Source of the DNA: Bacteroides sp. CAG:1076 | Lineage (GTDB): Bacteria > Bacteroidota > Bacteroidia > Bacteroidales > Bacteroidaceae | Assembly: GCA_000436795.1 (NCBI GenBank) | Contig: HF993140.1 | Span: forward strand, 1-15,650 | Direction: 5' to 3' | DNA length: 15,650 nucleotides | Shown: positions 838-15,552 of the stretch, one piece after another | Layout: each line of letters begins with the position of its first letter | Position numbering within the stretch: the stretch's first letter is position 1 | Translations under genes and position numbers: made by a program | The notes under the pieces: model-generated | Told to the model about the DNA's origin: nothing | Seen by the model: the letters and a program-made list of their open reading frames with translations, nothing else | Databases searched by the model: none

Positions 838-1464
838 ATGACGAGAAAAAATAGGTATGCGAAAGTATACGCGCAAGAACTAAAACGAATAGAAAAGCAA
901 GTGAATAAATTGCTCGCACAAGGTTATGCAATATCAATTGACATGCCAAAAGTAAAACAGCAACCTACAAAATCAGATGTTCAGCGGTTGAAGAAAATAA
1001 CACCGGACGTTATACAAAAATCTTCTGAATCTTTAATAACTGATAGCGGTTATAAGTCAAAAAGGCGAAAAGCAAAAAAGAAAATAGGTCGGGGAGAATA
1101 CAAGTCAAAAAGACGAAAAGCAAAAAAGAAAAGAGGACGCGTAGTAGATTATCCCTCTAGTGCGGATATTATTATAGAAAATTTTATAAACACAACATAC
1201 ACATATTTTCCGGTAGCAGAACGCATGTGTAGGCAATGGCTAGAAAATAGCTTAAGGAAGAATGGAAAAGAAGCAACAGCAGAAGCGTTGGAAGCTGTAC
1301 CGTGGCTGACTATTCACGAAAGTTATGACGCAGAAAAAAATGGAGGGCAGCCAATCGTACCCGAGTTTTTATCCGAACTGTCTGATAATCTAGGACTTTC
1401 CCGCGCGCAGCAAAAAGAATTTTTAGATTCATTCGACTATGAAAACGGTTGGGGTGAATATTAA
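838..1464 (+). CDS. Probable terminal protein (primer for DNA replication)
   Basis: A 208-residue basic protein directly upstream of the DNA polymerase, the position of the terminal protein (gp3) in phi29. The N-terminus matches the phi29 pattern: YA+..KN at the start, a helix, then a D.P segment (SIDMPKVKQQPTKSDVQRLKKIT). The C-terminal half (IIIENFINTTYTYFP...AEALEAVPWLTI) also resembles the phi29 priming domain. In phi29 the priming Ser232 lies in an acidic loop; here the analogous loop is HESYDAEKNGGQ, making S162 (or Y163) the candidate attachment residue. Two tandem copies of YKSKRRKAKKK (residues 72-82 and 88-98) form a strongly positive stretch in the middle. phi29 terminal protein is 266 residues. 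The identification rests on position and pattern, not a search. Confidence 0.75.
   Translation: MTRKNRYAKVYAQELKRIEKQVNKLLAQGYAISIDMPKVKQQPTKSDVQRLKKITPDVIQKSSESLITDSGYKSKRRKAKKKIGRGEYKSKRRKAKKKRGRVVDYPSSADIIIENFINTTYTYFPVAERMCRQWLENSLRKNGKEATAEALEAVPWLTIHESYDAEKNGGQPIVPEFLSELSDNLGLSRAQQKEFLDSFDYENGWGEY
1051..1146 (+). repeat. Two tandem 48-bp units encoding a lysine/arginine-rich repeat
   Basis: Two units with a 48-base (16-codon) period: AAGTCAAAAAGRCGAAAAGC begins at 1054 and again at 1102, and about 31 consecutive bases match with one difference. The units encode YKSKRRKAKKK twice. The frame is kept. Near-identity at silent positions indicates a recent duplication inside the terminal protein gene. 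Confidence 0.9.
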
Positions 1465-1484
1465 ATGTTTCACGTGAAACATTT
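1463..1484. promoter_or_regulatory. parS: parS-like site (host ParB/Spo0J binding sequence)
   Basis: TGTTTCACGTGAAACA at 1466-1481 is a perfect 16-bp palindrome identical to the consensus parS of Bacillus and other Firmicutes as I know it. The symmetry extends to 22 bp (1463-1484). It fills the gap between the terminal protein stop codon and the DNA polymerase ribosome binding site. A further half-site, GTTTCAC, lies at 1491-1497. No ParB or ParA gene is visible in the window, so any binding protein would come from the host. The palindrome could also form an RNA hairpin next to the polymerase ribosome binding site. Confidence 0.85.
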
Positions 1485-1498
1485 TGAGAGGTTTCACA

Positions 1499-3349
1499 AT
1501 GTCAAAAAAATCAGCGAAAAAACCCGTTATAATAGCGGCAGACTTTGAGACAACCGTATATCCCGGTCAGACATCGACAGAAGTTTGGAGCGCCGCATGG
1601 ATAGAATTATTTACAGAGCGACCGCACGTTCGCGGTAACATAGAAGATTTTTTGAACGATATTTTTAATTTGAATAAAAACGTTCTATGTTATTTTCATA
1701 ACCTGCGTTTTGATGGAGCATTTATTGTGTATTGGCTTTTAAAGAACGGCTATACATGGAATAATGCACGTAATAAAGGCATGAACGCAAAAGAGTTTAA
1801 AGCTTTAATATCAGATACAAATAAATGGTATACCGTTACAGTCAAACCAAAGTTTGATACAGTGATCGAGTTTAGGGATAGTGTTAAGCTGATGCCTATG
1901 ACATTAGATCAAATTGGCTCTGCATTTAATACGAAGCATAGGAAATTGGAAATGGAGTATATAGGAATGCGACACGCAAATTGTGAAATAACACCGGAAG
2001 AATATGCTTATATTATTAACGATATTTATGTACTAAAGGAAGCGCTGGAAGTTATGATAAAAAGTGGACATGATAAATTAACCATAGGCTCATGCTGTAT
2101 GGACGAATTCAAAAATAAATTTGATGCTATGGACTTCAAAGCAGCTTTTCCGAATTTAAAAGAGATAGCATTGATAAAATATGAGCTTGGAAGCGATAAC
2201 GTAGATCAATATATTCGAAAAGCGTATAAGGGAGGTTATTGCTATTACAAATACAAACAAAGAAAACATATTACACAGAATGGCATGACTTTTGATGTTA
2301 ACTCTCTATATCCTAGTGTTATGCACAGTAAAAGTGGGAACTATTACCCAACAGGGAAACCGATATTTTTTGAAAAAGCAATCCCTTATAAATGCTTAGA
2401 AGCGCGCGTGTATCCGTTTTATGTTAGATTGCGCTGTCGTTTTAAGCTAAAAGATGGGTTTTTGCCGACTGTGCAGATTAAAGGAGACTATAAGTATAAT
2501 TCTACTCAATGGCTGGAAACTTCTGATATTTATTATCGCGGGAAATATTATAGATATTTTACAAATAAAGAGGGGCAAAAAGAGGAAGCAAGGCCGGAAC
2601 TAACGCTTTTTATGACAGACTATTTACTTTTATTAGAACATTACGATGTGTATGACTTAGAGATTTTAGACGGTTGTTATTTTCATGGCGCGATAGGTTT
2701 GTTTGACACTTATATAGATCACTACATGAAAATTAAAATGACTACCAAAGACAAGGGAGAGCGAACAGAAGCAAAATTATTCCTAAACAACTTATATGGA
2801 CGGCTTGCCATTAACGATAACAGCTCTTACCGTGAACCATTTATCGACCCTGAAACAGATTCTATAGGATTCGAATTGCACCCGGAACATGAAAAAGACA
2901 CACTATACATTGCAGCGGGCGCAGCTGTGACGGCATACGCGCGATATTTTACCATAACGCACGCACAAGCTAATTATCAAAATTTTGTTTACAGTGACAC
3001 GGACTCTATACATATGCTGGACGATGGGCAGCCAGTAAAAATGATAAAAGAACACGCTACAGAGCTATTGCATTGGAAGAGAGAAAGCGATTGGAGCAGT
3101 GCTATATTTATAAGGCAAAAGACATATGCAGAGTTTGTGCAAAAAGAGGACGGGAAAAAAGTGACAGGACACTGGGAGATAAAGTGTGCCGGGATGCCGG
3201 AAAAGTCAAAAAAATTATTTTTGGCAAGTCACCCAATAACGGATTTTAAGATTGGCTTGAAAGTGGGCGGAAAATTAAAACCAAAATACATCAGTGGCGG
3301 AATGGTGTTAGTGGAAGATTTTTATACTTTACGCGCAAAAAGATGTTGA
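1499..3349 (+). CDS. Protein-primed family B DNA polymerase (phi29 gp2 type)
   Basis: A 616-residue polymerase with all expected motifs. The 3'-5' exonuclease has Exo I ADFETT (D15, E17), Exo II HNLRFDGAF (N68, D72) and Exo III Y..ND (Y171, D175). The YxGG-type motif is YKGG at 243-246. Polymerase motifs are A DVNSLYP (D266), B KLFLNNLYG (K426) and C YSDTDS (D500, D502), with KTY at 541-543. The C-terminus GGMVLVEDFYTL matches the end of phi29 polymerase, so the gene is intact; it is about 40 residues longer than phi29's 572. The start at 1499 is chosen because GAGAGG (1486-1491) precedes it; an in-frame TTG at 1484 is less likely. The enzyme would elongate from the terminal protein and replicate by strand displacement. 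Its stop codon lies within the -35 box of the next promoter. Confidence 0.98.
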   Translation: MSKKSAKKPVIIAADFETTVYPGQTSTEVWSAAWIELFTERPHVRGNIEDFLNDIFNLNKNVLCYFHNLRFDGAFIVYWLLKNGYTWNNARNKGMNAKEFKALISDTNKWYTVTVKPKFDTVIEFRDSVKLMPMTLDQIGSAFNTKHRKLEMEYIGMRHANCEITPEEYAYIINDIYVLKEALEVMIKSGHDKLTIGSCCMDEFKNKFDAMDFKAAFPNLKEIALIKYELGSDNVDQYIRKAYKGGYCYYKYKQRKHITQNGMTFDVNSLYPSVMHSKSGNYYPTGKPIFFEKAIPYKCLEARVYPFYVRLRCRFKLKDGFLPTVQIKGDYKYNSTQWLETSDIYYRGKYYRYFTNKEGQKEEARPELTLFMTDYLLLLEHYDVYDLEILDGCYFHGAIGLFDTYIDHYMKIKMTTKDKGERTEAKLFLNNLYGRLAINDNSSYREPFIDPETDSIGFELHPEHEKDTLYIAAGAAVTAYARYFTITHAQANYQNFVYSDTDSIHMLDDGQPVKMIKEHATELLHWKRESDWSSAIFIRQKTYAEFVQKEDGKKVTGHWEIKCAGMPEKSKKLFLASHPITDFKIGLKVGGKLKPKYISGGMVLVEDFYTLRAKRC

Positions 3350-3380
3350 CACTTTAAAAGGTTTGTGCTATTATTATAAT
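3346..3380 (+). promoter_or_regulatory. Early promoter of the TGTGCTATTAT type
   Basis: Perfect TTGACA (3346-3351), a 17-base spacer, then TATTAT (3369-3374) preceded by TGC (extended -10). The TTGACA contains the TGA stop of the polymerase gene. TGTGCTATTAT is shared with both genome-end promoters, indicating a common early promoter class. An overlapping TATAAT (3375-3380) has poor spacing. Confidence 0.85.
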
Positions 3381-14880: not shown

Positions 14881-14907
14881 AAAGAACCCGTTCTAAACGG
14901 GTTCTTT
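14881..14907. terminator. Bidirectional terminator between convergent operons
   Basis: AAAGAACCCG (14881-14890) pairs with CGGGTTCTTT (14898-14907) around TTCTAAA; T-rich tails follow on both strands. It ends the endolysin operon rightward and the leftward small-gene operon. The stop codon of the leftward gene (14893-14895) lies in the loop, as with the left-end paralogue. Confidence 0.9.
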
Positions 14908-15141
14908 TTCATTTACTAGGTTTTCAAGTTCAGTTAATATTCTTTCACTTTCTATATCTAATCTTTCAAGCTCATTATTGATATGAACTTTATCACTTTT
15001 ATACATCTCGGAATCAAGCTGTTTTATCACTAACATATATTTCCTTGTACCGCAGATTCTAGCATATTCAGCCGCCAGATGCTCATATTTCATGTCAATA
15101 ATCTGTTCCTGTTCAATACGCTGTGCTATAGTTTCGGACAT
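14893..15141 (-). CDS. Small early protein, paralogue of the left-end protein
   Basis: An 82-residue charged helical protein read leftward. The start at 15141 is chosen because AAAGGAGG lies just upstream on this strand; longer starts would run through that site. From residue 18 (KYEHLAAEYARI) it aligns with the left-end protein: KYE.L, Y..V.K..D.E.YK, L.L, NE. It has about 17 extra N-terminal residues (MSETIAQRIEQEQIIDM). Heptad leucines suggest a coiled coil. Function unknown. It is the second gene of the right-end early operon. Confidence 0.85.
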   Translation of the reverse strand: MSETIAQRIEQEQIIDMKYEHLAAEYARICGTRKYMLVIKQLDSEMYKSDKVHINNELERLDIESERILTELENLVNEKEPV

Positions 15142-15158
15142 TTTTTCTTGACCTCCTT

Positions 15159-15476
15159 TTACAATAAAAATGCCATTGCTGCTTCTTTCTCTGTTGCTCC
15201 CTGCTGCATACAATTGTTATATCTAATAAGCTGCCGTTCTGCTTTAATCTCTCTGATTCTCTTTAATGTCACCCAGTCTACTAACGCGCCTACGCAATAG
15301 GCTTTTTCCATAAGTTCTTCAACCTCAATTATCCTATCTTCTATTTCATTCCATTGCTTGTCTGTGTAGGCATGTACCGCGTCATCCCGCATATCAATTT
15401 CAATGCACTTTAAACGGTCATACATAGACTGCAGATTAAAAATTTCACTCTCATTCACTCTGTACTTTTTAGTCAT
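15159..15476 (-). CDS. Hypothetical early protein, 105 residues
   Basis: The first gene of the leftward right-end operon, start 15476 after AAAGGAGG on the minus strand. It is predicted mostly helical and highly charged (EIFNLQSMYDRLKCIEIDMRDD; EIEDRIIEVEELMEKAY; KRIREIKAERQLIRYNNC), with no domain I recognise. Its stop codon overlaps the ribosome binding site region of the next gene, a compact operon. phi29 carries p16.7/p17-type early genes at the equivalent right end; I do not claim homology. Confidence 0.8.
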   Translation of the reverse strand: MTKKYRVNESEIFNLQSMYDRLKCIEIDMRDDAVHAYTDKQWNEIEDRIIEVEELMEKAYCVGALVDWVTLKRIREIKAERQLIRYNNCMQQGATEKEAAMAFLL

Positions 15477-15497: not shown

Positions 15498-15512
15498 AAG
15501 GGTTCTTCCCTT
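15498..15512 (-). other. Small leader hairpin in the right-end transcript
   Basis: On the minus strand AAGGG and CCCTT flank AAGAA, a 5-bp hairpin between the start site and the ribosome binding site. The left-end leader lacks it. Low-stability; function unknown. Confidence 0.4.
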
Positions 15513-15535
15513 TCTGTAATTATATAATAGCACAC
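15509..15535 (-). repeat. Right copy of the 27-bp inverted repeat
   Basis: Reverse complement identical to 16-42. It carries the extended -10 and start-site region of the right-end promoter. Confidence 0.85.
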
Positions 15536-15552
15536 GCTTATAGAAATGTCAA
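15524..15552 (-). promoter_or_regulatory. Right-end early promoter (leftward)
   Basis: On the minus strand: TTGACA (15547-15552), 17 bases, then TATTAT (15524-15529) preceded by TGTGC. It is the same class as the left-end and 3346 promoters and drives the two leftward genes. Confidence 0.9.

Follow-up and report, generated by a model that had tools for sequence, protein, structure and literature searches.

The 15,650-base stretch of DNA analysed here, which we call the window, belongs to a small gut-type phage of the phi29 (Salasmaviridae) type and carries an exact copy of a bacterial chromosomal parS site. This site is probably a host centromere carried by the phage, onto which host ParB is loaded so that the phage genome is positioned or inherited. 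The word probably applies to this reading as a whole; our confidence is higher that it is a host ParB site and lower that the phage gains this particular benefit.

The exact parS 16-mer TGTTTCACGTGAAACA was located by sequence scan at positions 1466–1481 (unstranded), is identical to chromosomal sites and is the only match in the window at up to three mismatches. According to PMC10197239, the parS consensus is this same 16 bp palindrome. The 16-mer lies within the perfect 22 bp palindrome AAATGTTTCACGTGAAACATTT (1463–1484, unstranded), as read from the sequence; the symmetry ends there, and 22–23 bases within 1462–1485 are identical in chromosomal matches. The upstream open reading frame (ORF) ends with the stop codon TAA at 1462–1464, the last two bases of which are shared with the palindrome, and the polymerase gene starts with ATG at 1499–1501, preceded by a GAGAGG that resembles a ribosome-binding site (1486–1491, + strand, read from the sequence). 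The scan confirms what the preliminary description of this DNA gave: an exact parS and a 22 bp palindrome, placed after the ORF presumed to encode the terminal protein and ahead of the polymerase gene. At 1490–1497 (+ strand) the element GGTTTCAC matches seven of the eight bases of a parS half-site and lies 24 bp downstream of the exact parS, a spacing known from some tandem parS pairs. As a full 16-mer this position has eight mismatches to parS, and a role as the second half-site of a tandem arrangement is suggestive only; the window has one full parS site. Two other functions of the palindrome were considered and rejected: an intrinsic terminator, given that the stem is not G+C-rich and is followed by TTTTGAGAG without a long U run, and a stable RNA hairpin, given that the fold stability of the parS hairpin is ordinary (z = −0.41).

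The gene content of the window and its size, in the range of about 15–20 kb, are those of a phi29-type phage. Searches with PHROGs and Pfam identify a family B polymerase, a p6-like double-stranded DNA-binding protein, a single-stranded DNA-binding protein, a gp16-type ATPase, the major capsid protein, the tail knob, portal and lower collar proteins, a tail lysozyme, a holin and a GH25 endolysin. The gene at 1499–3349 (+ strand) encodes a protein-primed family B DNA polymerase (phrog_1907, E = 9.1e-167; PF03175, E = 9.7e-48). The 208-amino-acid ORF at 838–1464 (+ strand) contains a very basic repeat region and is presumed to encode the terminal protein. It has no PHROG or Pfam match and its fold was predicted with low confidence (mean pLDDT 62), so that the label of terminal protein rests on its place. 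Of the two neighbours named in the preliminary description, the polymerase is therefore confirmed by profiles, while the terminal protein is assigned by position. A 48-nucleotide direct repeat in this ORF (1051–1096 and 1099–1144, 87% identical) encodes a very basic 16-amino-acid unit. Homologues of the presumed terminal protein are 192, 208 and 224 amino acids long and, in the alignment, differ by this unit, which implies that the copy number of the repeat varies among close relatives.

Several further features of the genome were observed. A promoter-like stretch at 1–27 is repeated at 3348–3374 (81%), and positions 1–48 recur inverted at 15503–15550 (85%), an arrangement that would suit three transcription units with a common type of promoter. 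Compared by eye, the translations of the two terminal small ORFs (63–263, + strand, and 14893–15213, − strand) look like those of paralogues. None of the four Rfam matches up to E = 0.5, all of which are under their gathering scores at this lax threshold, belongs to the pRNA family; pRNAs outside the curated families would escape such a search.

No ParA or ParB was found among 20 window ORFs compared with PHROGs or ten compared with Pfam (small ORFs being partly covered), nor in a tblastn search (E = 1e-3) of the window and 123 other phi29-like contigs, for which a single host ParA and a single host ParB served as queries. The statement that the phage has no visible ParA or ParB is upheld by all three scans, and a phage-encoded ParABS partition system, for which parA and parB genes were not found on the phage, was rejected.

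The same 16-mer is common on chromosomes. It occurs exactly in 136 of the 196 genomes of a host-type class, by which we mean one bacterial class that is centred on G001, the metagenome-assembled genome (MAG) holding the contig of a relative, and that may include the host group of this phage. Two copies are most often found, and carriers have one to four exact sites; a reversed-pattern control occurs in none of the 196 genomes. G001 itself, the sole MAG with the relative's contig, has no exact parS. In one chromosomal stretch (L270) the order, with gene names read by eye, is dnaA, dnaN, recF, gyrB, parS, parA, parB, parS. When the whole window was compared with 398 genomes (E = 0.01), matches were obtained in 90, and 76 of the 133 listed matches cover parS, many with 22–23 identical bases, the palindrome often being counted on both strands. 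Apart from parS, this comparison gave short weak matches or distant kin in G001, and no host is indicated. The two bases flanking the 16-mer are A in 77 and 69 of 98 cases on chromosomes (49 sites, from stretches chosen for holding parS or matching the window) and in 41 and 54 of 72 cases on phages (36 sites). The window site has the 16 bp consensus sequence that is also found at parAB/origin loci in a group that may include the host. It shares both the 16-mer and similar A-rich flanks with the chromosomal parS of the ParABS (Soj–Spo0J) system of Bacillota. The setting differs: the Bacillota sites lie at the bacterial origin and flank parAB in L270, whereas the window site belongs to a small phage genome, where parA and parB were not found.

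To place the site within the phage family, phi29-like contigs were gathered by their polymerase alone, and parS played no part in the choice. The sample comprised 80 of 506 IMG/VR relatives, 36 contigs from a phi29 query, two further IMG/VR loci (one already among the 80), one from the genome collection and 24 of 94 phage records picked by name and host; together with the window this gave 143 contigs, of which 124 were left after the removal of near-duplicates. The closest polymerase relatives of the window are 83–96% identical. At the DNA level there are two IMG/VR loci with 46 and 44% identity and one 52% relative in a MAG of the genome collection, and a further IMG/VR search for close DNA relatives of the window gave none. 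Exact parS is present as 36 copies in 19 of the 124 contigs, and the consensus TGTTNCACGTGAAACA as 44 copies in 21. Of 839 control palindromes of the same composition, only one was present at all, in a single contig. With both strands counted, parS ranks first among all 16-mers by number of contigs, with 19 compared with at most 13 for any non-overlapping 16-mer. Allowing one mismatch, parS is found in 26 of the 124 contigs and control palindromes in at most two. The site is not essential to the family, since most relatives (98 of 124, some of these contigs being partial) do without it even at one mismatch. In IMG/VR as a whole, parS is present in at least 120 stretches and two control palindromes in 0 and 11; phi29-type protein matches were found in six of the 120 stretches listed, two of them distant. 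The claim that the parS match is beyond chance is borne out by the 124-contig, 16-mer and palindrome controls.

Among the 120 listed IMG/VR parS stretches (L003–L122), only one (L081) has a ParB-type match to a single Clostridia ParB query, and none of these stretches, which are partial, matches dnaA, dnaN, recF, gyrB or parA. Phages beyond the phi29 group may commonly carry parS without parB. In each of two viral contigs, five exact copies of parS are clustered in roughly 1 kb (L018, 2657–3444; L045, 10535–11462). The commonest one-mismatch form is the centre variant TGTTTCACATGAAACA (or its complement), with ten copies in the non-redundant set, and is seen in L153, L165, L170, L172, L174, L183, L196, L213 and L218; this variant could be a sign of hosts with a ParB that tolerates it.

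The number of sites per genome bears on a different use of host ParB. As decoys, phage sites would titrate or misdirect the protein, upset segregation, replication control or sporulation entry, and favour lytic growth. This would fit a genome-level role without a fixed position, as well as the five exact sites found in each of two contigs (L172 and L198). Nevertheless, 15 of the 19 carriers, among them the window phage, are limited to one or two exact sites, no more than the one to four per carrier genome in the host-type class; with so few sites per phage genome, titration would require prior phage replication. We regard a decoy function as unlikely. Improbable, too, is a role in which parS would load host SMC via ParB and fold the phage genome, or would make the genome resemble the host chromosome before a defence system. 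The window site is host-like, flanks included, as self-marking would have it, but we know of no defence system by which DNA with parS would be spared. For folding, PMC10197239 states that SMC–ScpAB is recruited at parS.

Within phage genes, the sequence appears to be kept at the level of DNA. In the clade of phi29, the six codons AAT GTT TCA CGT GRA ACA are kept in all five phages compared (phi29, Goe1, B103, Goe6 and Chedec 11), at the same place in the linker of the endolysin (gp15) and near the C-terminus of gp10, with variable flanks. For comparison, the codons that are invariant among those with an invariant amino acid number 35 of 154 in gp15 and 47 of 204 in gp10. The five phages are not five independent cases, because they form three clusters at 90% identity. 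As the six-codon word is common to two unrelated genes, selection on DNA and not on the peptide is implied, and the in-gene sites of this clade point to such selection. Exact parS inside coding ORFs occurs in two reading frames. Taken with the enrichment, the codon conservation argues that the sequence is held by selection in the phage family, a statement that refers to the family and not to the species of the window.

The position of parS, by contrast with its sequence, is not fixed. Although ORFs cover 79–96% of the carrier contigs, 25 of the 36 exact sites lie between ORFs (as called mechanically). The gap between terminal protein and polymerase was compared in 118 contigs and contains parS in two of them, namely in the window and in L198; conservation of this exact gap as a general rule was rejected. 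On a quick tree of 98 contigs, which has some long branches away from the window clade, the window forms one clade with L123 and L130 (98*); all three carry parS, in three different gaps. In L123, the nearest relative, one parS is located between a 148-amino-acid ORF and the next gene, where the corresponding gap of the window is plain (13 bp); the terminal protein–polymerase gap of L123 is 12 bp long and has no parS. L130 has a parS pair 24 bp apart before a 549-amino-acid ORF, one member having one mismatch. The preliminary description had asked whether related phages conserve the site in this gap: as a rule they do not, and L123, whose gap has no parS, keeps one elsewhere. The outcome named there as a refutation, the same gene pair with a random gap sequence, has thus come about only by half. 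Carriers of TGTTNCACGTGAAACA are 19 of the 98 contigs on the tree, and at least 12 changes between presence and absence are needed to explain their distribution.

Tandem parS pairs 19–29 bp apart were observed in L223 (8742/8761), L196 (5149/5178), L198 (6555/6583), L011 (5525/5551) and L130 (9806/9830, the first with one mismatch), and the chromosomal stretch L264 has a similar 24 bp pair. In random 120 bp stretches, a site with up to three mismatches was met in two of 400 draws.

These positions allow a role in local control of the polymerase gene to be weighed, in which ParB would stand as a roadblock or act as a silencer, or in which the mRNA would form a hairpin ahead of the ribosome-binding site. 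In the window parS directly precedes the Shine–Dalgarno sequence, and of the 36 exact sites ten, spread over seven of the 19 contigs, are found in the 1 kb that precedes the polymerase, where uniform placement would put 2.5 on average (by sites, P = 0.0002; by contigs, P = 0.0054; the null ignores gene density and shared ancestry). This excess is exploratory, because the 1 kb cut-off was picked after the places had been seen. Against local control, parS is present in two of 118 gaps only, the stability of the hairpin is unremarkable (z = −0.41) and the sequence is also kept within coding ORFs, in two reading frames. Local control is therefore highly improbable. Silencing of the adjacent terminal protein and polymerase genes, which had been put forward, is unlikely as a general role, as the gap rarely holds parS while the nearest relative keeps parS elsewhere. 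A site that is kept in a lineage while it moves would exert its effect on the phage DNA as a whole, as expected of clamp loading and segregation more than of control of neighbouring genes.

Any palindrome may serve as an operator, and relatives of ParB, Noc among them, recognise palindromes of a related kind, so that the site could in principle belong to another phage or host DNA-binding protein with a parS-like specificity. The window site nevertheless agrees with the chromosomal one at every one of the 16 positions and in the preferred flanking bases, the carriers are scattered over the tree with its 12 or more state changes, and we give this reading very little credence. A chance match is of negligible probability: shuffled windows do contain a match at up to three mismatches in 22 of 200 cases (mean 0.11), but the window match is exact, and for the family a chance origin is refuted by the palindrome controls, the 16-mer ranking and the one-mismatch counts in the 124-contig set, together with the IMG/VR controls.

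The named phages were used to compare the presence of parS with sporulation of the host. Among these 24 records, eight have an exact site and 13 have nothing at up to two mismatches. Sites that fit TGTTNCACGTGAAACA are carried by six of 11 phages with spore-forming hosts, by two of eight with other hosts and by two of five gut records of unassigned host. Phi29, which has four TGTTCCACGTGAAACA sites, and Goe6, which also has one site with two mismatches, contain TGTTCCACGTGAAACA without an exact site, and Bfsp1 has a centre variant of parS. The TGTTCCACGTGAAACA sites of phi29 fit TGTTNCACGTGAAACA, which we take to be the B. subtilis parS consensus. No site at up to two mismatches was found in PumA1, SYYB1, KonjoTrouble and SRT01hs, all with spore-forming hosts, nor in Cp-1, Av-1, Swim, Thatch, PineapplePizza and the Rhizobium phage; these ten phages argue against a universal need for parS. 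Exact sites are also present in Athos, a phage of Enterococcus, and in Voltaire, a phage of Glutamicibacter, so that spore entrapment cannot be the sole use. The presence of parS follows host sporulation only untidily, and spore entrapment, one of the roles suggested earlier, is possible but not sufficient, given the sites of Athos and Voltaire and the four phages of spore-forming hosts without one.

For the window phage we infer ParB binding, clamp loading and a benefit in positioning or inheritance. Host ParB (Spo0J) would bind the phage parS, close as a CTP clamp and slide along the short linear genome. The ParA/ParB system would then handle the phage DNA as it does the origin region of the host, such that it is positioned or segregated, and when lysis is delayed the infecting genome would stay with a compartment or daughter cell, including the forespore in sporulating hosts. 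Because parS would act on the whole genome and not on neighbouring genes, it would be kept in the lineage while its place changes. According to PMC8367383, open DNA ends release ParB clamps in vitro and closed DNA retains them. By our own inference, a terminal protein on each genome end might prevent the loss of such clamps from the linear DNA. The phage thus probably borrows the chromosome-moving protein of its host. Of the earlier proposal that host ParB is used, what stands is an exact host-type parS that is beyond chance, without phage ParA or ParB having been found and with the motif recurring in the family; what does not is the role given to the gap. More tentatively, and with somewhat less than even confidence, we propose a portable host-centromere cassette of about 22 bp that has been repeatedly gained, lost and moved, into gaps between stop codon and ribosome-binding site and into gene linkers, that rides ParABS in sporulating and non-sporulating hosts, and whose clamps are perhaps held by protein-capped ends.

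The closest precedent in phage type is phi29 itself. Meijer et al. 2005 reportedly described Spo0J-dependent spore entrapment of phi29, and may also mention parS on phi29. PMC9437464, citing Meijer 2005, states that Spo0J traps the phi29 chromosome in spores. The window differs from phi29 in that its polymerase is 34.5% identical and that it has one canonical site, located elsewhere, in place of four TGTTCCACGTGAAACA sites. SGI1 resembles the window phage in being a mobile element with parS-like sites for a resident ParB that is not its own; according to PMC10954446, these parS mimics are bound by the ParB of a plasmid and stabilise SGI1. There the ParABS is that of an IncC plasmid, the element is integrative and mobilizable and binding is demonstrated, whereas the window has a chromosomal-type site on a virulent phage, known from sequence. 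Plasmid-prophages of the P1 type are likewise phage genomes with a centromere-like site. They encode their own ParA and ParB and have a replicon-specific site, in which they differ from the window, where no such genes were found. We met no publication on parS of phi29-like phages in the literature searched, most subscription papers lying outside its reach.

The usual view of virulent phages is that replication and lysis proceed without an inheritance system. If our reading is true, a selected host centromere would be a route to vertical inheritance for virulent phages, in carrier cells or in spores. The question of phi29 entrapment by Spo0J would become testable by sequence across many phages, and parS on phage contigs without parB would offer a simple marker.
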